Assembly (NCBI RefSeq): GCF_020387415.1
Contig: NZ_JAGWCB010000010.1
Location: 62,001-126,000, forward strand
DNA: 64,000 nt
Source of the DNA: Ideonella benzenivorans
GTDB taxonomy: Bacteria > Pseudomonadota > Gammaproteobacteria > Burkholderiales > Burkholderiaceae_C
Direction of reading: 5' to 3'
The stretch's first letter is position 1, and each line of letters begins with the position of its first letter. Below are positions 38,954 through 62,094 of this stretch, in pieces. A model generated the notes under the pieces. That model ran no database searches. It was not told the origin of the DNA and saw nothing but the letters and a program-made list of their open reading frames with translations. The position numbers were made by a program, and so were the translations under genes.

Positions 38954-40053
<1,100 letters not shown>

Positions 40054-40068
40054 GGCGGGGGACGCGAG

Positions 40069-40497
40069 ATGCCTGCAGTTGCCTCCCGCAGCGGCGGCCG
40101 TCGACGCCGCGCGATGAACGAGATCAACATGGTCCCGTTCATCGACGTGATGATGGTGCTGCTGATCATCTTCATGGTCAGCGCGCCGATGATCACCACC
40201 GGCCTGGTGGACCTGCCCAGCGTGGGTAAGGCCAAGACCCGGCCGCAGAGCGTGGTCGAGGTGGTCGTCCAGAGCGATGACAAGCTCGAACTGAAGATCG
40301 ACCAGGGCCCGTCCCAACCGATCACGCTGGGTGCCCTGGCCGACCAGGTGCTGAGCGCCCAGAACGGCAGCGACAACGTGCCGGTGATCATCTCGGCCGA
40401 CAAGCAGGTGCGCTACGACAGCGTGATGAAGGTGATGGACACGCTGCAGCGCCATGGCGTGCAGCGCGTGGGGCTCTCGGTCAAACAGGGAGGCTGA
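40069..40497 (+). CDS. tolR: TolR, Tol-Pal proton channel subunit
   Basis: 142 residues. [21 protein letters not shown] places the proton-carrying Asp at 26 in the single membrane helix, with a periplasmic domain after it. It is a paralogue of the two ExbD proteins at 9.0-9.9 kb but more alike to TolR in its [16 protein letters not shown] segment. Next to tolQ and tolA. Confidence 0.95.
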
Positions 40498-40501
40498 GTC
40501 C

Positions 40502-41653
40502 GTGAGCAGTCCGCTGCAGCCCTGGTCCACGCCCCGTGACGCGCTGCATCCGCCCAGTGCGGACAACCCGCGCGTGGGCTGGCTCATCTCGGTGCTGGCC
40601 CATGCCCTGCTGGTGCTAGCCCTGACCCTGGGCGTGCAGTGGCACACCTCCGACCCCGCGGGGGTCTCGGCCGAACTGTGGTCGGCCGTGCCGCAGATCG
40701 CCGCCGAACCGCTGGGCCAACGCGATGGCCAGCCGGATGCGGCCCCGCCCTCGTCCGATCAAGCCGAGCCCACCCCACCGACCCCGCCGGCAGCCCAGGT
40801 GGAAGCAGCCCAGCAGCGCGCTGCCACCCAGGCGGCGGCCCAAGCCGCTGAGAAGGCGGCCGAGAAAGCGGCGGAAAAGGCCACCGAAAAGGCCGCTGAA
40901 AAGGCCGCCGCCCAGAAGGCGGCCCAGAAGGCCGCTGCCGAGAAGGCCCAGGAAGAACGCGATGCCGAGCTGGCCCGCGAGCGGGATCAGCGTGCCAAGG
41001 ACAAAGCGGCCAAGGAGAAAGCCGCGAAAGAGAAGGCGGACAAGGCCGAAAAGGCCGCCGAAGAGAAAGCCGCCAAGGAAAAGGCTGCCAAGGAAGCCCA
41101 GGACGCCAAAGACAAAGCCGACAAGGCGGCCAAGGAGAAGGCGGCCAAAGAAGCTGCCAAGGAGAAGGCGGCGCAGGACAAGGCCGAACAGGCCGCCAAG
41201 GACAAGGCAGAGAAAACGGCCAAGGAAAAGGCCGCGCAGGAGCAGGCCCGCCAGGCCAAGGCCGCGGCCGCCGCCCGCCAGGACCAACTGCGCCGCATGG
41301 CCGCCCAGCTGGGCAGCCCGACCGGCGTGGCCGGCGCCAACGGCCCGTCCGGCAGCACCGGCACCGCACAGCGCAGTTCCGGCCCCTCGGCCAACTACGC
41401 CGGCCGCATCAAGGCCTACATCAAGCCCAACATCGTCCAGATCGACAGCATCGACGGCAACCCGGAAGCGGTGGTGGAAGTGCGCTGCGCGCCGGACGGC
41501 ACCATCATCGGCCGGCGCCTGACCCATGCCAGCGGCAACAAGGACTGGGACGACACCGTGCTGCGCGCGATCGACCGCACCGGCAAGCTGCCGCGTGACG
41601 TCGACGGCCGGGTGCCGCCGACGATGGAAATCCACTTCAAACCCCGCGAGTGA
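40502..41653 (+). CDS. tolA: TolA, envelope-spanning Tol-Pal protein
   Basis: 383 residues. N-terminal membrane anchor (about 25-45), a long Lys/Ala/Glu helix of near-repeats such as [17 protein letters not shown] (about 105-265) that crosses the periplasm, a Gly/Ser-rich hinge, and a C-terminal TonB/TolA-like domain (about 300-383) that binds TolB and Pal. The GTG at 40502 starts 5 nt after tolR and gives the usual N-terminus; upstream in-frame codons lie inside tolR. The expected tolB and pal do not follow: the end overlaps the convergent DoxX gene by 17 nt. Confidence 0.93.
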
Positions 41654-42101
41654 GGCGGCGCCGGCGCCACCAGGCATCCACCGACCAGGCGCCCGGCCCC
41701 CACAACAGCAAGGCCAGCAGCAGGCTGCCCCAGAACTGGTGCTGGGTCAGCGCCGCGTCCGCCAGCTCGGCCAGGCTGATGGCGGCCACCGCGTTCACCA
41801 CGCTCAGCCCGGCTGCGCCGAAACGCCCGGCCAGCCCCAGCACCAGCAGCACCGGCAAGGCCAGCTCCCCCGCGGTGCCGGCCACGGCCGCCACGTCGGG
41901 CGGCAGCAGGGGCACGTGGTATTCGTCCTGGAACAGCGCCAGCGTGATGTCCCAGTCGCGCAGCTTGGTCAGGCCGGAGCGGAAGAACACCGCCCCCACA
42001 TAGACACGCGCCGCCAGCTGGGCCGGGGCCTGCAAGGCCTGCAGCAGCCGCTCGGCGCGCTGGGCCCAGGCGCCGCCGGGCAGAAAGGTGTGAAGTGACA
42101 T
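41637..42101 (-). CDS. DoxX-family membrane protein of the bufferin operon
   Basis: 154 residues with about four hydrophobic helices, typical of DoxX. The N-terminal region has [18 protein letters not shown], the family's usual first-helix motif. The ATG at 42101 is preferred over a TTG at 42107. It lies 2 nt downstream of bufC and is therefore the last gene of the operon. DoxX proteins often accompany DUF692/DUF2063 gene pairs; suggested roles are membrane redox chemistry or assisting export or maturation. Confidence 0.87.
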
Positions 42102-42103
42102 GG

Positions 42104-42940
42104 TCAAGGTTCCTCATGGGTCGAAAGGTCCACGGCCGACAGGCAGTCCACGGCCGTCCACCAGCCGTCGGTCAGGGCCGTCTGCAGCCAGGCCTGGAAA
42201 TCGTGTGGGGCGGCCTGGGCCAGGGCCTGCCCCAGGCTCTCGCCACGCAGCAGGTGGCGGGTGAAGCGCGCCTGGTCCGCGGGCAGCGGCCGCACGCCCA
42301 CCGCCAGGCCGCGGCGGCAGACCACCACCGCCGTGCGTCCGCGGCCGGCCGGGGGTGGCGGCTGAACCTCGGCCGCTGGGACATCCCCCTGGGTCTGGGT
42401 CTGCCACAGGGCCAGCGCCGCGGTGGACAGGCTCAGCACCGCCAGCCCCGGCCGGGGTTGCAGGACCAGCCGGACCGGATCCGTGGTGTGCAAGAGGGCC
42501 AGCCCCGCCGGCCAGCCCTCTGGCGCGTCCTCGGCCCGGTTGGCCTGGTGCACCCCCCATTCCAAGCGGGCCAGGTCCGCGGCCCAACCAGCCACCGTCG
42601 GGCACCGCGCCCGCCCTGCCGGGCTGCGCAGCCAACCGGCCCAGTGGCCGCCCCAGGTGCCCAGATCCCCTTGGCGCGGCGGATGCCGTTGCCACAGATC
42701 CCAGGCCGCGGCAGCCACATCGGCCGGCGCCAGCTGGCCGGCCAGCACCGGATACGCCACGGTCAGCGTGCGGGCCGCGGTGGCCCGGGCATGCTGCCGG
42801 TGGGACGACAGGGCCGCCGCCGGGCCGCACCAGCCCGTCGGCCAGGCCTGTGCCCCGCCCTGCAGCGCCGCCAGCAACGCTGTCTGATGGCGGTGTTCCG
42901 CCCGCGCCGCCGCGGTCAGGCGGCCTGCCGCCGTGCCCAT
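42104..42940 (-). CDS. bufC: BufC-like DUF2063 partner protein of the iron oxidase
   Basis: 278 residues. An N-terminal DUF2063-type helical domain (QTALLAALQGG through TLTVAYPVLAGQLAP, with a LARLEWGVHQANRAED-type centre) is followed by a C-terminal DUF2063 extension rich in Ala/Leu. Such proteins form the recognition partner that brings the precursor leader to the DUF692 oxidase. GGGGAGG precedes the ATG at 42940. It overlaps bufB by 25 nt and is followed 2 nt later by the DoxX gene. No metal-ligand set is evident. Confidence 0.85.
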   Translation of the reverse strand: MGTAAGRLTAAARAEHRHQTALLAALQGGAQAWPTGWCGPAAALSSHRQHARATAARTLTVAYPVLAGQLAPADVAAAAWDLWQRHPPRQGDLGTWGGHWAGWLRSPAGRARCPTVAGWAADLARLEWGVHQANRAEDAPEGWPAGLALLHTTDPVRLVLQPRPGLAVLSLSTAALALWQTQTQGDVPAAEVQPPPPAGRGRTAVVVCRRGLAVGVRPLPADQARFTRHLLRGESLGQALAQAAPHDFQAWLQTALTDGWWTAVDCLSAVDLSTHEEP

Positions 42941-43815
42941 GGGGCCTCCCCATGGTGTTCCGGCCGGCAGGCGGCGGCCCGCGCCGCCTCCTGCAGCAAG
43001 GTGTCCAGCGACGGCAAGCGGGTGTCCCACTCGATCAGTGTGGGCACTGGCCCCAGCCGGGCCAGCGCATGCCGGTACACCGTCCAGACCGCCTCGCCCA
43101 CCGCGCTGCCGTGGTCGTCGATGACCAGCGGGCCGCTGGCATCGTGACCGGCCAGGTGGATTTCCTCCACACTGGCCGGGTCCAGCGCATCCACCCCATC
43201 ACAGGCGGCTCGCACCGGGTCGGGTTCGCGCCGGTTGAGGGCATTCACCACCAGGTTGTTCAGGTCCAACAGCACATGGCAGCCGGTGCAGCGCGTCAAG
43301 GCGTTGAAGAAGTCCGGCTCCGCCATCTCGTCGTCTGCGCGCCACAGACAGGTGCTGATGTTCTCGACCGCCAGCACCCGCCCGAGTCGGGTCTGCACCT
43401 GGTCCACCTGCTGCGCCATCAGCGCCAGCGAGGCTTGGTTGAAACCGATGGGCAGCAGGTCACCCGCATGCACCGCCTTGCCGCCACGACGCACCTGCGT
43501 GAAGGCTGCGTGGTCCGAGACATGGCGCGGCGCCACGTCCCGCACCAGGTCGGCCAGCCGGTCCAGATGCCAGGCATCCAGCCCGGCGGCCGACCCCAGC
43601 CCCAGCCCCACACCATGCAGGCTGAGGGGATAGCACGCCGCCGCGGCCCGCAGTGCCGCACGTGCCGCACCACCGGCGGCAAAGAAGTTCTCCGAGTGCA
43701 CCTCGATGAAATCCAGCGCCGGGCGGCGCTGCAGCAGGGCACGCCCGTGCGGCGTGCGCCAGCCGATGCCCACCGGCTGGCGCCGCGGCAGAGCCGAGGC
43801 AGCGGACGGGCTCAC
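42916..43815 (-). CDS. bufB: BufB-like DUF692 multinuclear non-heme iron oxidase (RiPP-modifying)
   Basis: 299 residues, TIM-barrel MNIO enzyme. All family metal-site motifs are visible: GIGWR (16-20), FIEVHSENFF (36-45), LSLHGVGLGLGS (64-75), SDHAAF (100-105), VENIS (150-154), LLDLNNLVVNALN (182-194), EIHLAGHD (218-225), DDHG (233-236) and IEWD (261-264). MNIOs bind two or three irons and convert cysteines of precursor peptides to oxazolone/thioamide, thiooxazole or other metal-binding groups. The GTG at 43815 overlaps the precursor gene stop as GTGA, fixing the start and showing translational coupling. Confidence 0.93.
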   Translation of the reverse strand: MSPSAASALPRRQPVGIGWRTPHGRALLQRRPALDFIEVHSENFFAAGGAARAALRAAAACYPLSLHGVGLGLGSAAGLDAWHLDRLADLVRDVAPRHVSDHAAFTQVRRGGKAVHAGDLLPIGFNQASLALMAQQVDQVQTRLGRVLAVENISTCLWRADDEMAEPDFFNALTRCTGCHVLLDLNNLVVNALNRREPDPVRAACDGVDALDPASVEEIHLAGHDASGPLVIDDHGSAVGEAVWTVYRHALARLGPVPTLIEWDTRLPSLDTLLQEAARAAACRPEHHGEAPWARRQAA

Positions 43816-44090
43816 TTCTTCAGATCCATCTTGGCCTCGTCCAGCGTGCGGCCATGCAGCGCATGGCAGCTGCCCTTGGCCACGTAGTTCCATTCGTCGG
43901 CCCCGTGGTCGGTCTTGGCCAGGCCCGCGCAGGAATGCGAGCCCGACAGATTGGCGCAATCGTTGGCGCCGGCCTTGGCGATGCCGAAGCACTTTTCCTT
44001 GGGGCCGGATTCGGCCTGGGCCGTCGCGCCCAGGCCAAGGGCCATCACGGCGGTCAGGGCGGTGGAGACGAGCAGGTGGTGCGAATGCAT
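43812..44090 (-). CDS. bufA: Bufferin-type RiPP precursor (DUF2282, four cysteines)
   Basis: 92 residues. A Sec-type signal (1-26, cleavage after AQA) precedes a mature part with four cysteines at 34, 45, 54 and 75, in the contexts EKCFGIAKAGANDCA, HSCAG and GSCHA. This matches the DUF2282 precursor family now called bufferins, in which the MNIO enzyme modifies cysteines to make copper-binding groups and the product is exported to the periplasm. AGGAG precedes the ATG at 44090. First gene of bufA-bufB-bufC-doxX, divergent from an ECF sigma gene. The modification type and metal are family knowledge, not shown directly here. Confidence 0.9.
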   Translation of the reverse strand: MHSHHLLVSTALTAVMALGLGATAQAESGPKEKCFGIAKAGANDCANLSGSHSCAGLAKTDHGADEWNYVAKGSCHALHGRTLDEAKMDLKK

Positions 44091-44150
44091 GGGAGCTCCT
44101 GGAAGGAAGGGGGTTTGCAGCCACGCCCTGTGCGCAGCTGTCAGGTCTGT

Positions 44151-44176
44151 GGTCGCGGGCGGCGCGCATTCCTTAC
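44151..44176 (-). promoter_or_regulatory. Candidate ECF-type promoter of the bufferin operon
   Basis: On the minus strand GTAAGG (44176-44171) and CGACC (44155-44151) are separated by 15 nt and lie about 60 nt before the bufA ATG. The layout resembles the GTAACC-N16-CGAA element used by the bufferin-regulating SigF of Caulobacter, as I recall it. Inferred from spacing and similarity only. Confidence 0.4.
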
Positions 44177-44179
44177 ACT
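44174..44179 (+). promoter_or_regulatory. Candidate -10 hexamer of the ECF sigma gene
   Basis: TACACT on the plus strand, 29 nt before the sigma ATG. Its first three bases overlap the proposed -35 of the divergent buf promoter, so the two promoters may interfere with one another. Confidence 0.4.
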
Positions 44180-44208
44180 GAAGGTGTTGCCATTCCCGAT
44201 CCCCGCGC

Positions 44209-44775
44209 ATGCCAGACGAATTCCAGAAGGCGGTGCAGGCCTTGCGCCCGCAGCTGATGCGCTACGCCCACTCGCAGCTGCGCAACGAGGCCTGGGCCGA
44301 GGACGCGGTGTCGGACACCCTGCTGGCGGCGCTCGAGCGGCCCCAGGCCTTTGCCGGCCAGTCGCAGCTCAAGACCTGGCTGGTGGGCATCCTCAAACAC
44401 AAGCTGGTGGACCAGCTGCGTCGCCATGCGCGCGAAGCCACCGTGCTGCAGGCCGATGACGCCGAGGATCTGGACGCGCTGCTGTTCGACGAGACCGGCC
44501 ACTGGCGGGAAACGCCGGCCGACTGGCAGGGCCATCCCGAGGCCCTGCTGGGCCAGCAGCAGTTCCTGCAGGTGCTGGACGCCTGCATGGAGCACCTGCC
44601 CCCGGTGCAGGGCCGGGTCTTCCTGATGCGGGTCTGGCTGGAGCTGGACACCGAGGAGATCTGTCAGGAGCTCGCCATCACCGCTGCCAACCTCTGGGTG
44701 CTGCTGCACCGGGCGCGGCTGCGCCTGCGTGACTGTCTGCAGACGCGCTGGTTCCCACCGGCCGCGCAGGCCTGA
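44209..44775 (+). CDS. ECF-family RNA polymerase sigma factor
   Basis: 188 residues. The sigma-2 region includes LMRYAHSQLRNEAWAEDAVSDTLLAALE and FAGQSQLKTWLVGILKHKLVDQLRR; sigma-4 includes LPPVQGRVFLMRVWLELDTEEICQELAITAANLWVLLHRARLRLRDCL. There is no sigma-1.1 or sigma-3. It diverges from the bufferin operon across 118 nt and is followed after 23 nt by a small zinc-finger anti-sigma gene. It most likely activates the bufferin operon in response to metal stress; this is inferred from arrangement. Confidence 0.92.
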   Translation: MPDEFQKAVQALRPQLMRYAHSQLRNEAWAEDAVSDTLLAALERPQAFAGQSQLKTWLVGILKHKLVDQLRRHAREATVLQADDAEDLDALLFDETGHWRETPADWQGHPEALLGQQQFLQVLDACMEHLPPVQGRVFLMRVWLELDTEEICQELAITAANLWVLLHRARLRLRDCLQTRWFPPAAQA

Positions 44776-44798
44776 CCCCTCCCCGCCACGGACCTGCC

Positions 44799-45023
44799 AT
44801 GCTGTTCCAGATCTCCTGCCGTCAGGCCACCGCCCTGATCCTCCAGGCCGAAGACCGCACGCTCACCCGCGGCGAACGCCTGCGCCTGCGCCTGCACCTG
44901 ACCTTGTGCGACCCCTGCCCGCGTTTCCTGCGCCAGGTGACGGTGATGCACCGCGCCGTGGACCGCTGGAAGCACTACCGCGATGCAGCACCGGACGACG
45001 GCCCGGTTTCTGAAGAAAAATAA
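44799..45023 (+). CDS. Minimal zinc-binding anti-sigma factor (ZAS-like)
   Basis: 74 residues. Cys7, then His33-x3-Cys37-x2-Cys40 (LHLTLCDPC), form the zinc-binding anti-sigma pattern; the helix around it resembles the sigma-inhibiting domain. There is no membrane segment, so it would be a soluble, cytoplasmic inhibitor able to sense metal or thiol oxidation directly. It is placed right after its likely partner sigma gene. Too short for any other domain. Confidence 0.82.
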   Translation: MLFQISCRQATALILQAEDRTLTRGERLRLRLHLTLCDPCPRFLRQVTVMHRAVDRWKHYRDAAPDDGPVSEEK

Positions 45024-45154: not shown

Positions 45155-47695
45155 ATGCAGGCCATGAGCAACCTTTCGCATCTGCCGCCTTCCGTGACGT
45201 CGGGCACCGACGACCCGGCCCTGCTGCCGTCGACCGGTGCGCAGGAATCGTTCGCCTGGCCCACCCCGCCCTACGCCATCTACGCCACCAGCCTGCCGCA
45301 GCAGGAGCCCGAGCCCTGCGAGATCGAAGGGCTGAACGGCAAGGTCATGCAGGCCACGATGCTGGGCTTCTGGCCAGGCCAGAACGTGATCCAGGTGCTG
45401 GTGCCGCCGGCCCGCACGGCCATGCCGCTGCGCCCCAGCCAGTTCCGCCGCATCACGCTGCTCACTCCGCTGCGGCCGTCCTTCATGGACCGCGGCGCGG
45501 TGCCCGCCGAGCTGATGGACTTTCACCCCTCGGTCGACTACCGGGTGGACCTGGCCGACGGCAGCACCCTGAGCGGCCGCACCGTGGGCCACATGGAAAC
45601 TACGGAAGGCCTGTTTCTGTTCCCGCCGCTGGACGATGGCGGCACCGTGCAGCGCCTGTTCTGCCCGCGCGGCGTCTATGCCCGCTACCAGCTGGGGGCC
45701 GCCCTGGGCAGCATGCTGGTGGCCGAGGACACCGCCAGCCCGGCCCAGATCGCCGAAGTGCTGGCCGAGCAGAACCAGCTGCGCGAGCGCCGCCTGGGCG
45801 ATGTGCTGCTGGGCCAGAACGTGGTCACCCGCGAGCAGCTGGAATCCGCGCTCGAGACCCAGTCCCGCATGCCGATGGTGCGCATCGGCGAGGCGCTGAT
45901 CGCGCTGGGCTACATCACCCAGGGCCAGCTGGATGCTGCGCTGTCCGAACAGCGCGAGAACCGCGCCGTGCCCCTGGGCGAGCTGCTGGTGCGGGCCGGC
46001 CACATCCAGCGCAGCGCGCTGCGCTCCGCCCTGGCCCGCAAGATGGGCTACCCGGTGGTCCAGCTGGAAGACTATCCGATCGACCCGATCGCCCTCAAGC
46101 AGGTGCCGCTGAGCGTGGCACGCCGCCTCAACGTGCTGCCGCTGCAGTCCCTGCCCGGCCGTCTGGTGGTGGCGCTGGAGGACCCGTCGCGCACCGACGT
46201 GCTCGACGAGCTGTCCTTCCTCGCCCAGGGCAAGGTGGTGCCCGTGCTGCCGGCCAGCGACAACCTGCAGCAACTCATCTCCGGCGCCTACCAGAAGCAC
46301 GGCTACGAGGAGGCGATCTCGCTGAGCGCCTTCGACCCGTCCGGGCTCTCGTTCGACGAGGCCGGCACCGAGCGCCTGCTGGCCGACCTGGAGCAGACCC
46401 GCACGTCGGAGCAGGAGACCCCCGACGAGCCGCCGATCGAGCAGTCGGACAACACGCTGGTGCGGCTGATCAACACCATGATCGTCGAGGCCCAGGCTCA
46501 GGGTGCCTCCGACATCCACATCGAACCCCAGCCCGGCCGCGAGAAGCTGCGCATCCGCTTTCGCCGCGACGGCATCCTGCACCCCTACCTGGAGCTGCCG
46601 CACACCTACCGCAATGCCCTGGTCGCCCGCATCAAGATCATGTGCGACCTGGATATCTCCGAGCGCCGGCGGCCGCAGGACGGCAAGATCAACTTCGCGC
46701 GCTTCGTGCCCTCCTGCCCGATTGAGCTGCGCGTGGCCACCATCCCGACCAACAACGGGCTGGAAGACGTGGTGCTGCGCCTGCTGGCCTCGGCCAAGGC
46801 CCTGCCCATCGACAAGCTGGGCCTGTCACCGCAGAACCTGCTGGCCCTGAAGGACGCGATCGGTCGTCCCTACGGCCTGGTGCTGTGCGTAGGCCCCACC
46901 GGTTCCGGCAAGACCACCACGCTGCATTCGGCGCTCAGCTACATCAACACGCCCGAGCGCAAGATCTGGACCGCCGAAGACCCGGTCGAAATCACCCAGG
47001 CCGGCCTGCGCCAGGTGCAGGTGAACCCGAAGATCGACTGGACCTTCGCCAAGGCGCTGCGCGCCTTCCTGCGCGCCGACCCGGACGTGATCATGGTGGG
47101 CGAAATCCGCGACGAGGAGACCGCCAGCATCGCGATCGAATCCTCGCTGACCGGCCACCTGGTGCTCTCGACGCTGCACACCAACAGCGCCGCCGAGACC
47201 GTGACCCGTCTGCTCGACATGGGCATGGACCCGTTCAACTTCGCCGACTCGCTGCTGGCGGTGCTGGCCCAGCGGCTGGTGCGGCGCCTGTGCAGCAACT
47301 GCCGGCGCGCCGAGCCCGCCCCGGACGAGTGGGTGGAAGAGCTGCTGGACGACTACCTGCACGCCTGGGAAGGCCACACCGGCGCCCCCGACCGCGCGGC
47401 GCTGAAGCAGGACTGGATCCGCCGCCACGGCGCCAAGGGGGTGCTGATGCACTACCACAGCCCCGGCTGCGAAAAGTGTGACAAGACCGGCCTGCACGGC
47501 CGGGCCGCGATCCACGAGCTGCTCAGCACCTCGCGCGAGATGCGCCAGCTGATCCACAGCGCCGGCCATGCCGAAGACATCGAACAACTGGCGCTGAGCC
47601 AGGGCATGCGCACGCTGCGCCAGGACGGCATCGAAAAGGTGCTGGCGGGCATCACCTCACTGGAAGAAGTGCGCGCCACCAGCAACACGCGCTGA
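45155..47695 (+). CDS. GspE/PilB-family ATPase with three MshEN-like repeats and a novel N-terminal domain
   Basis: 846 residues. The C-terminal half is a type II secretion / type IV pilus extension ATPase: Walker A GPTGSGKTTT (580-589), Asp box TAEDPVE (606-612), Walker B VIMVGEIRDEET (645-656) and a CxxC...CxxC zinc site (RLCSNC and GCEKCD). The N-terminal half has three repeats exactly 30 residues apart (about 213-236, 243-266, 273-296), of pattern (R/P)(L/I)G-x2-L-x10-L-x2-AL, which resemble the c-di-GMP-binding MshEN motif. Residues about 40-180 form an unassigned beta-rich domain. A TTGACA lies at 45028-45033. No pilin, secretin or inner-membrane platform gene is adjacent. A second ATG at 45164 is an alternative start. 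Confidence 0.87.
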   Translation: MQAMSNLSHLPPSVTSGTDDPALLPSTGAQESFAWPTPPYAIYATSLPQQEPEPCEIEGLNGKVMQATMLGFWPGQNVIQVLVPPARTAMPLRPSQFRRITLLTPLRPSFMDRGAVPAELMDFHPSVDYRVDLADGSTLSGRTVGHMETTEGLFLFPPLDDGGTVQRLFCPRGVYARYQLGAALGSMLVAEDTASPAQIAEVLAEQNQLRERRLGDVLLGQNVVTREQLESALETQSRMPMVRIGEALIALGYITQGQLDAALSEQRENRAVPLGELLVRAGHIQRSALRSALARKMGYPVVQLEDYPIDPIALKQVPLSVARRLNVLPLQSLPGRLVVALEDPSRTDVLDELSFLAQGKVVPVLPASDNLQQLISGAYQKHGYEEAISLSAFDPSGLSFDEAGTERLLADLEQTRTSEQETPDEPPIEQSDNTLVRLINTMIVEAQAQGASDIHIEPQPGREKLRIRFRRDGILHPYLELPHTYRNALVARIKIMCDLDISERRRPQDGKINFARFVPSCPIELRVATIPTNNGLEDVVLRLLASAKALPIDKLGLSPQNLLALKDAIGRPYGLVLCVGPTGSGKTTTLHSALSYINTPERKIWTAEDPVEITQAGLRQVQVNPKIDWTFAKALRAFLRADPDVIMVGEIRDEETASIAIESSLTGHLVLSTLHTNSAAETVTRLLDMGMDPFNFADSLLAVLAQRLVRRLCSNCRRAEPAPDEWVEELLDDYLHAWEGHTGAPDRAALKQDWIRRHGAKGVLMHYHSPGCEKCDKTGLHGRAAIHELLSTSREMRQLIHSAGHAEDIEQLALSQGMRTLRQDGIEKVLAGITSLEEVRATSNTR

Positions 47696-61735: not shown

Positions 61736-62094
61736 CACGCCCCCGCCGGCAGGTAGAGACCAGCGCGCTTGGCGCGGGCAGCCTGGGACGCCTTCTGTGT
61801 GGCGGCCAGCAGCTTCTCGACCCCCTGCTTGTCGTTGCGGCCGTCTTCAGCAAGCTTGGCCCAGAAGGCACGCACCTCGCTCAGGCGCCAGCGGGTACAG
61901 CGAGGTTTGCGGATCACGGGCTGCGGCGCTCGGCCTGCAGCAACTTCGGCGTGCCACCAAGTCAGCGACATCCCGCCGGCAGCAGCACACGTCTTTGAGT
62001 CGACCAGCGCGACTTCCGCCAAGCTGGCAGGCAACGCGCGAGAAGGTTGCGGGGTGGCCTGTCCCGCTGTTTGCGGCCCCATGCTTTTCGTCAT
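61735..62094 (-). CDS. Second AlpA-like DNA-binding protein
   Basis: 119 residues. The N-terminal 35 residues are Ala/Pro-rich. SKTCAAAGGMSLTWWHAEVAAGRAPQPVI followed by TRWRLSEVRAFWAKLAEDG resembles the helix-turn-helix and wing of AlpA-like regulators. Start at 62094 (ATG); a TTG at 62121 is an alternative. Two AlpA-like genes in tandem suggest one for excision and one for regulation. Confidence 0.65.
   Translation of the reverse strand: MTKSMGPQTAGQATPQPSRALPASLAEVALVDSKTCAAAGGMSLTWWHAEVAAGRAPQPVIRKPRCTRWRLSEVRAFWAKLAEDGRNDKQGVEKLLAATQKASQAARAKRAGLYLPAGA

Follow-up and report, generated by a model that had tools for sequence, protein, structure and literature searches.

A predicted sigma factor regulon covering two bufferin-type operons in Ideonella benzenivorans

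In the 64,000-nt stretch of Ideonella benzenivorans DNA analysed here (NZ_JAGWCB010000010.1, positions 62,001–126,000; hereafter the window, which belongs to contig C9 of a genome of 4.49 Mb and 21 contigs), a bufferin-type operon, bufA-bufB-bufC-doxX, lies on the minus strand and diverges from genes for an extracytoplasmic function (ECF) sigma factor and a small anti-sigma factor. We consider it likely that this sigma factor, restrained by the 74-aa anti-sigma, drives both bufABC-doxX and an unlinked operon of the BufA2 type. The analysis itself shows the genes and their synteny, the promoter motif, how rare this motif is in the own genome, and that it co-varies with the type of sigma/anti-sigma pair next to it.

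Over a family sample of 100 genomes (99 genera), the anti-sigma model exceeded its cut-off in 47 and DUF2282, the domain of the bufferin precursor BufA, was found in 58, with a co-occurrence by genome of p = 1e-9. The two lay within 1.5 kb of each other in 33 genomes, and all 33 of these linked loci are divergent. Relatives share GCAGTGTAAGGA, a spacer and GCGACA on the bufA strand; in the window, GTAAG-N16-CGAC stands in front of bufA, with CGAC beginning 65 nt before the ATG. A weight matrix trained on 29 of 32 relatives chosen by this same motif, and excluding the window, gave the window promoter a score of 27.5, reached by none of 2000 shuffles that preserved base composition, not dinucleotides. 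Scores of at least 15 bits were obtained for 26 of the 33 linked loci. A further set of 80 named loci, picked by sigma similarity and overlapping partly with the matrix-training genomes, included 77 with the anti-sigma and 60 with a divergent bufA within 1.8 kb; 59 of these 60, part of which are shared with the training set, scored at least 18 bits and the remaining one 17.0. On the strand facing the sigma gene, none of the 33 loci exceeded 10 bits, so that the data do not support autoregulation of the neisserial kind through this same promoter. In two loci (L245, L248) a CGTC variant precedes bufA, and among nine more bufA genes that lie unlinked in anti-sigma genomes (L193–L202 without L197), five scored at least 15 bits and three below zero.

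That the adjacent sigma factor reads the buf promoter is supported most strongly by the way in which promoter type tracks regulator type. NrsF (PF06532), an anti-sigma of another kind, occurs in 14 of the 100 family genomes, within ~3.2 kb of a DUF2282 gene in eight, and was not found in the own genome. Upstream of bufA, six of the eight NrsF-type loci carry the promoter of Caulobacter SigF (GTAACC, CGAA) and none the GTAAG motif, whereas the strict GTAAG motif is present in 24 of the 33 zinc-type loci and the SigF motif in none of them, window included. Thus, in all 30 linked loci with either motif (24 zinc-type, 6 NrsF-type) the promoter corresponds to the regulator. The sigma factors of the two sides match different NCBIfam models and share 22% identity with each other, compared with 58% and 56% within each of the two sets.

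In the own genome, the strict pattern TGTAAG-N16/17-CGAC has three matches, as does the relaxed pattern GTAAGNA-N14/15-CGWC; both sets contain the bufA site and a site on contig C16, and the third match differs between them. The C16 site, located after a terminator-like hairpin (recognised by eye), precedes a second, unlinked bufferin operon (C16:112381–114398; L134:882–2899), whose first gene encodes a 94-aa precursor of the BufA2 family (94.3 bits, cut-off 60) and whose second encodes an MNIO–DUF2063 fusion (MNIO_BufB 371.9 bits, cut-off 310; DUF2063 58.1 bits). A short promoter rule hence covers one linked and one unlinked bufferin operon. Matches at C13:239039 (relaxed pattern; on the antisense strand of a gene judged by eye to be ClpP-like) and C3:21441 look like chance, as do three one-mismatch GTGGAAG matches, which were judged apart from their surroundings. 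No strict motif was seen before msrA or msrB in this genome, whose msr genes were not located.

Across the family sample the strict motif matched 83 times, of which 26 matches inside the sigma gene, at codons for Cys-Lys-Glu-Leu, were dropped before counting. The remaining 57 comprised 50 in the 47 anti-sigma genomes and seven in the 53 genomes without the anti-sigma (p = 1e-8), against 25 and 30, respectively, for a reversed-pattern control whose matches were compared by number alone and not by the genes behind them. Linked bufA promoters account for 18 of the 50. Among the 32 unlinked matches, six precede a second-type MNIO gene (with a precursor detected in five), two an unlinked bufA, and four msrA, msrB or msrP-like genes (msrA or msrB in two relatives, L137 and L157); two precede a histidine-specific methyltransferase (EgtD-like) and one an EgtB-like protein (L136, L148, L167), which suggests that ergothioneine-type thiol synthesis belongs to the same regulon in some relatives. 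One thioredoxin, two DUF1223 proteins, one catalase-like and one Spond_N protein are encoded downstream of others, bringing matches before any of these functional classes, which were named after the matches had been seen, to 20 of 32. The DUF1223 genes behind the motif, with a CSSC motif of their own, come from two genera (L143, L169). In genomes without the anti-sigma, one of the seven matches (L155) precedes bufA.

Several observations weigh against the proposed regulon. Seven of the 33 linked loci score below 15 bits; 12 of the 32 unlinked matches precede unrelated or no clear genes; and the reversed control, at 55 in total, nearly equals the 57 real non-coding matches, the excess appearing only in anti-sigma genomes. 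In Neisseria, the sigmaE targets of meningococci were unresponsive to H2O2, diamide, singlet oxygen and SDS–EDTA, and the available text of that study reports no metal response for the anti-sigma MseR (PMC2893595). Moreover, the GTAAG motif is carried by six of 11 buf upstream regions (from nine genomes) with neither anti-sigma adjacent, one of the 11 having the SigF motif, so that a further regulator probably exists. Genomes with buf genes and neither anti-sigma contained sigma homologues in seven of eight cases (25–41% identity), and five inspected homologue loci had no zinc-type gene. In L226, L227, L228 and L229, which combine a GTAAG-type buf promoter with neither anti-sigma, a sigma homologue of 38–41% identity is encoded elsewhere, adjoining a response-regulator gene in L227 and L228; this unlinked homologue may be another regulator that acts on that promoter.

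In the mechanism that we favour, the adjacent sigma factor would transcribe the Buf1-type operon from the GTAAG-N16-CGAC promoter and would be kept inactive in the cytoplasm by the 74-aa protein, an interaction to which gene order and the example of MseR point. Stress would disturb a Zn(Cys)3(His) site, presumed to hold zinc, and release the sigma factor, which would then switch on bufABC-doxX and the unlinked BufA2-type operon together. The two bufferins of this small regulon would buffer copper, as the bufferin literature implies, and in relatives the same promoter may also serve methionine-sulfoxide repair and ergothioneine-type genes. Excess copper seems the most likely signal, a judgement that we hold to be about evenly balanced and that leans on a similar, copper-induced target set in Caulobacter. 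The system would most likely be a copper/methionine-oxidation response with the target set of Caulobacter SigF under an unrelated sensor.

The anti-sigma carries the ligand motif C-x25-H-x3-C-x2-C and, in agreement with the initial annotation, which had described a 74-aa zinc-type protein with Cys7, His33, Cys37 and Cys40, has no membrane segment: averaged over 19 residues, its hydrophobicity peaks at 0.5 on the Kyte–Doolittle scale. Motif spacing is identical in 38 of 39 anti-sigma sequences, and most have no cysteines beyond the three ligands (37 of 39 in this set, which was trimmed around the motif before counting, and 69 of 73 in another); the sensing chemistry therefore probably involves the metal site itself, and direct metal sensing, as put forward in the initial annotation, is possible. 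A structure model (predicted local distance difference score 75.3, predicted template-modelling score 0.48) consists of three helices, and a fold search with it returned no Protein Data Bank (PDB) match at E 0.001 or better, which says little either way about a zinc-type anti-sigma fold. Sequence searches of the PDB with bufC and the anti-sigma gave no useful match either. Against the RsrA model the window protein scored 20.1 bits (cut-off 62.5).

The same wiring might instead answer to oxidants. The anti-sigma would then act as an RsrA-like switch, in which ligand cysteines form a disulfide, zinc leaves and the sigma factor is freed, and the regulon would serve chiefly the repair of damage by oxidants such as hypochlorous acid, the bufferins being one component among others. 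Streptomyces RsrA has the same ligand spacing and switches via a disulfide between two zinc ligands (PMC2893595), and since it too works through ligand cysteines, an anti-sigma with no others cannot separate copper from oxidant. The motif-linked msrA, msrB, msrP-like, ergothioneine-type, thioredoxin and catalase-like genes of relatives fit such a role, as do the response of gonococcal genes of the sigmaE set to H2O2 (PMC2893595) and an ECF system of another bacterium that includes a methionine-sulfoxide reductase operon and is induced by hypochlorous acid (PMC8315932). Conversely, transcription of meningococcal MsrA/MsrB was among the responses left unchanged by H2O2, diamide and singlet oxygen, the targets of Caulobacter SigF respond to metals but show no induction by agents that generate reactive oxygen species (PMC3511200), and the only convincing motif sites of the own genome precede bufferin operons. 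An oxidant switch is thus possible, if somewhat doubtful. A purely historical neighbourhood, in which the sigma/anti-sigma pair chiefly serves other targets and buf is driven mainly by another sigma factor with a similar promoter, appears improbable: it would sit well with the six GTAAG-bearing regions lacking either anti-sigma nearby, with a genome (G081; L097) in which a TolA-like gene is followed directly by sigma and anti-sigma genes without buf genes between them, and with the 20 of 80 named loci without a divergent bufA within 1.8 kb (two of which have less than 1.1 kb of upstream sequence, a third, L331, having its divergent bufA ~2.5 kb away), but poorly with the agreement of promoter and regulator in 30 of 30 loci and with the confinement of the motif excess to anti-sigma genomes.

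The divergent arrangement is widespread rather than rare in the family. Among the 32 fetched relatives, 28 had bufA, bufB, bufC and doxX all detected; the set was incomplete in L062, L066, L086 and L087, L066 starting at a contig end. In seven of the 33 loci (L072, L078, L079, L080, L082, L086, L091) an extra gene for a thioredoxin-like CxxC protein (recognised by eye) is inserted between promoter and bufA in the direction of bufA, and is perhaps part of the buf operon there. In a phylum sample of 299 genomes, 91 passed the anti-sigma cut-off and 63 contained DUF2282, mostly apart by coordinates. In two of these (G241, G257) the sigma, anti-sigma and buf genes all point the same way, as do the sigma, anti-sigma and MNIO genes of L241.

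Coordinates of the locus, which were confirmed, are given in Table 1. The operon structure proposed in the initial annotation is exact to the base: bufA and bufB overlap by 4 nt at GTGA (GTG of bufB at 43815), bufB (to 42916) and bufC (from 42940) by 25 nt, bufC and doxX are separated by 2 nt (42102–42103), and the whole diverges from the sigma and anti-sigma genes. Its gene identities likewise held, all Pfam domains exceeding their curated cut-offs, DUF2063 barely. Judged by sequence, the features are those of a Buf1 bufferin operon, namely a four-cysteine DUF2282 precursor with a putative signal (a Sec-like N-terminus ending in AQA, judged by eye), an adjacent MNIO gene, DUF2063 and DoxX. 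The best NCBIfam model for BufB was MNIO_BufB, at 285.7 bits below that model's cut-off of 310, and bufA and bufC had no NCBIfam match. BufB motifs, which presumably contain the metal ligands, align with those of PDB 3BWW. The sigma factor contains Sigma70_r2 (50.3 bits) and Sigma70_r4_2 (50.2 bits), and the anti-sigma matches zf-HC2 (25.2 bits, cut-off 22.2).

Table 1. Features of the bufferin locus, in window coordinates
Feature	Position	Strand	Description
bufA	43812..44090	-	92-aa DUF2282 (Buf1-type) bufferin precursor, four Cys; PF10048 75.6 bits, cut-off 22.4; span includes stop
bufB	42916..43815	-	MNIO (formerly DUF692) peptide-modifying enzyme, GTG start; PF05114 (MbnB_TglH_ChrH) 287 bits
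bufC	42104..42940	-	DUF2063 partner protein; PF09836 28.9 bits, barely above cut-off 27.2
doxX	41637..42101	-	PF07681 (DoxX) 62.2 bits
ECF sigma factor	44209..44775	+	PRK12520 275.3 bits, cut-off 255; TIGR02943 223.3 bits, cut-off 162.2
Anti-sigma factor	44799..45023	+	74-aa, soluble, zinc-type; NF052368 63.7 bits, cut-off 50; C7-H33-C37-C40
Predicted bufABC-doxX promoter	44152..44177	-	TGTAAG 44177-44172, 16 bases, CGAC 44155-44152

On the flanks, TolQ/TolR/TolA-like genes (39367–41653, plus strand) reach the end of doxX, which overlaps the last of them, an opposite-strand TolA-like gene with a TonB_2 domain. Downstream of the anti-sigma, a large type II/IV secretion ATPase-like gene (T2SSE 417.6 bits, MshEN) occupies 45155–47695 on the plus strand.

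The initial annotation had called the system little described, which stands in part. New here are the promoter, the predicted regulon with its second bufferin operon, and a similar set of targets placed under two unrelated sensors. The pairing itself has a precedent in neisserial sigmaE/MseR, Caulobacter provides an established case of bufferin-type operons under an ECF sigma factor (PMC3511200, PMC8224329), and the arrangement recurs in a third of family genomes; the promoter evidence does support the earlier suggestion that the sigma factor governs buf. Literature searches that covered few subscription journals found no publication joining MNIO, sigma factor, methionine sulfoxide reductase and copper, nor one on Neisseria sigma/msrAB with copper and DoxX, and for ECF, DoxX, DUF692 and anti-sigma together only the Caulobacter work. 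A 2025 survey of MNIO enzymes gives NrsF as the anti-sigma that belongs to Buf1 clusters; its available main text contains none of the words zinc, zf-HC2 and promoter (PMC12452194). The shared promoter suggests that such a sigma factor can control a Buf2 operon located elsewhere in the genome, though that survey saw sigma and NrsF genes in Buf1 clusters and none in Buf2.

Of the known systems, RsrA resembles the window anti-sigma in its HxxxCxxC motif and equally spaced upstream cysteine, but its target set is unlike that of the window system. Closer is the Neisseria sigmaE/MseR operon (NMB2140–NMB2145; NGO1948–NGO1943), studied experimentally in 2010, in which MseR is encoded after sigmaE. 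Deletion of MseR leads to derepression of the operon and of msrA/msrB, and the cysteines of MseR are important; the available text gives no zinc content for this protein (PMC2893595). The gonococcal genes encode DoxX, a periplasmic protein, DUF692, DUF2063, sigma and NGO1943 (PMC2954202), so that DoxX, MNIO, DUF2063, the ECF sigma and a small cytoplasmic zinc-type anti-sigma are common to both systems; the precursor NGO1947 may not be a DUF2282 protein. Ligand spacing is the same (Cys4, His30, Cys34 and Cys37 in MseR), and the neisserial promoter (GTMAGBWTT-N12/13-CGTCTAAH; PMC2893595) has the geometry of ours, GTMAG-N16/17-CGTC corresponding to GTAAG-N16/17-CGAC with CGTC in place of CGAC. 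In contrast, the neisserial genes form a single co-directional, autoregulated operon, whereas here two units diverge with no motif facing sigma, and msrA/msrB, a proven target there, is motif-linked in relatives only. The comparison links the meningococcal pair, whose inducer was left open, to bufferin-type operons.

Caulobacter SigF is copper-induced and controls two MNIO operons and MsrPQ (PMC3511200, PMC8224329). It resembles the window system in having a DUF2282 operon beside the ECF sigma gene and a second MNIO operon, with MsrPQ as a further SigF target, and differs in its promoter, GTAACC-N16-CGAA, which is not found before the window bufA, and in its anti-sigma, NrsF, which crosses the membrane with six helices and has cysteines that probably face the periplasm (PMC3511200). 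Tentatively, one target set (Buf1, Buf2 and methionine-sulfoxide repair) might stand under two unrelated sensors within one family. One would be NrsF, paired with a sigma family of its own and GTAACC/CGAA promoters; the other would be a very small zinc protein of the cytoplasm, paired with a different sigma family and GTAAG/CGAC promoters, and this protein would sense Cu(I) directly through Zn(Cys)3His. If true, such sensing would also supply the inducer of neisserial MseR. Control of similar targets by two unrelated sensors would offer a clean case for studying regulator exchange.

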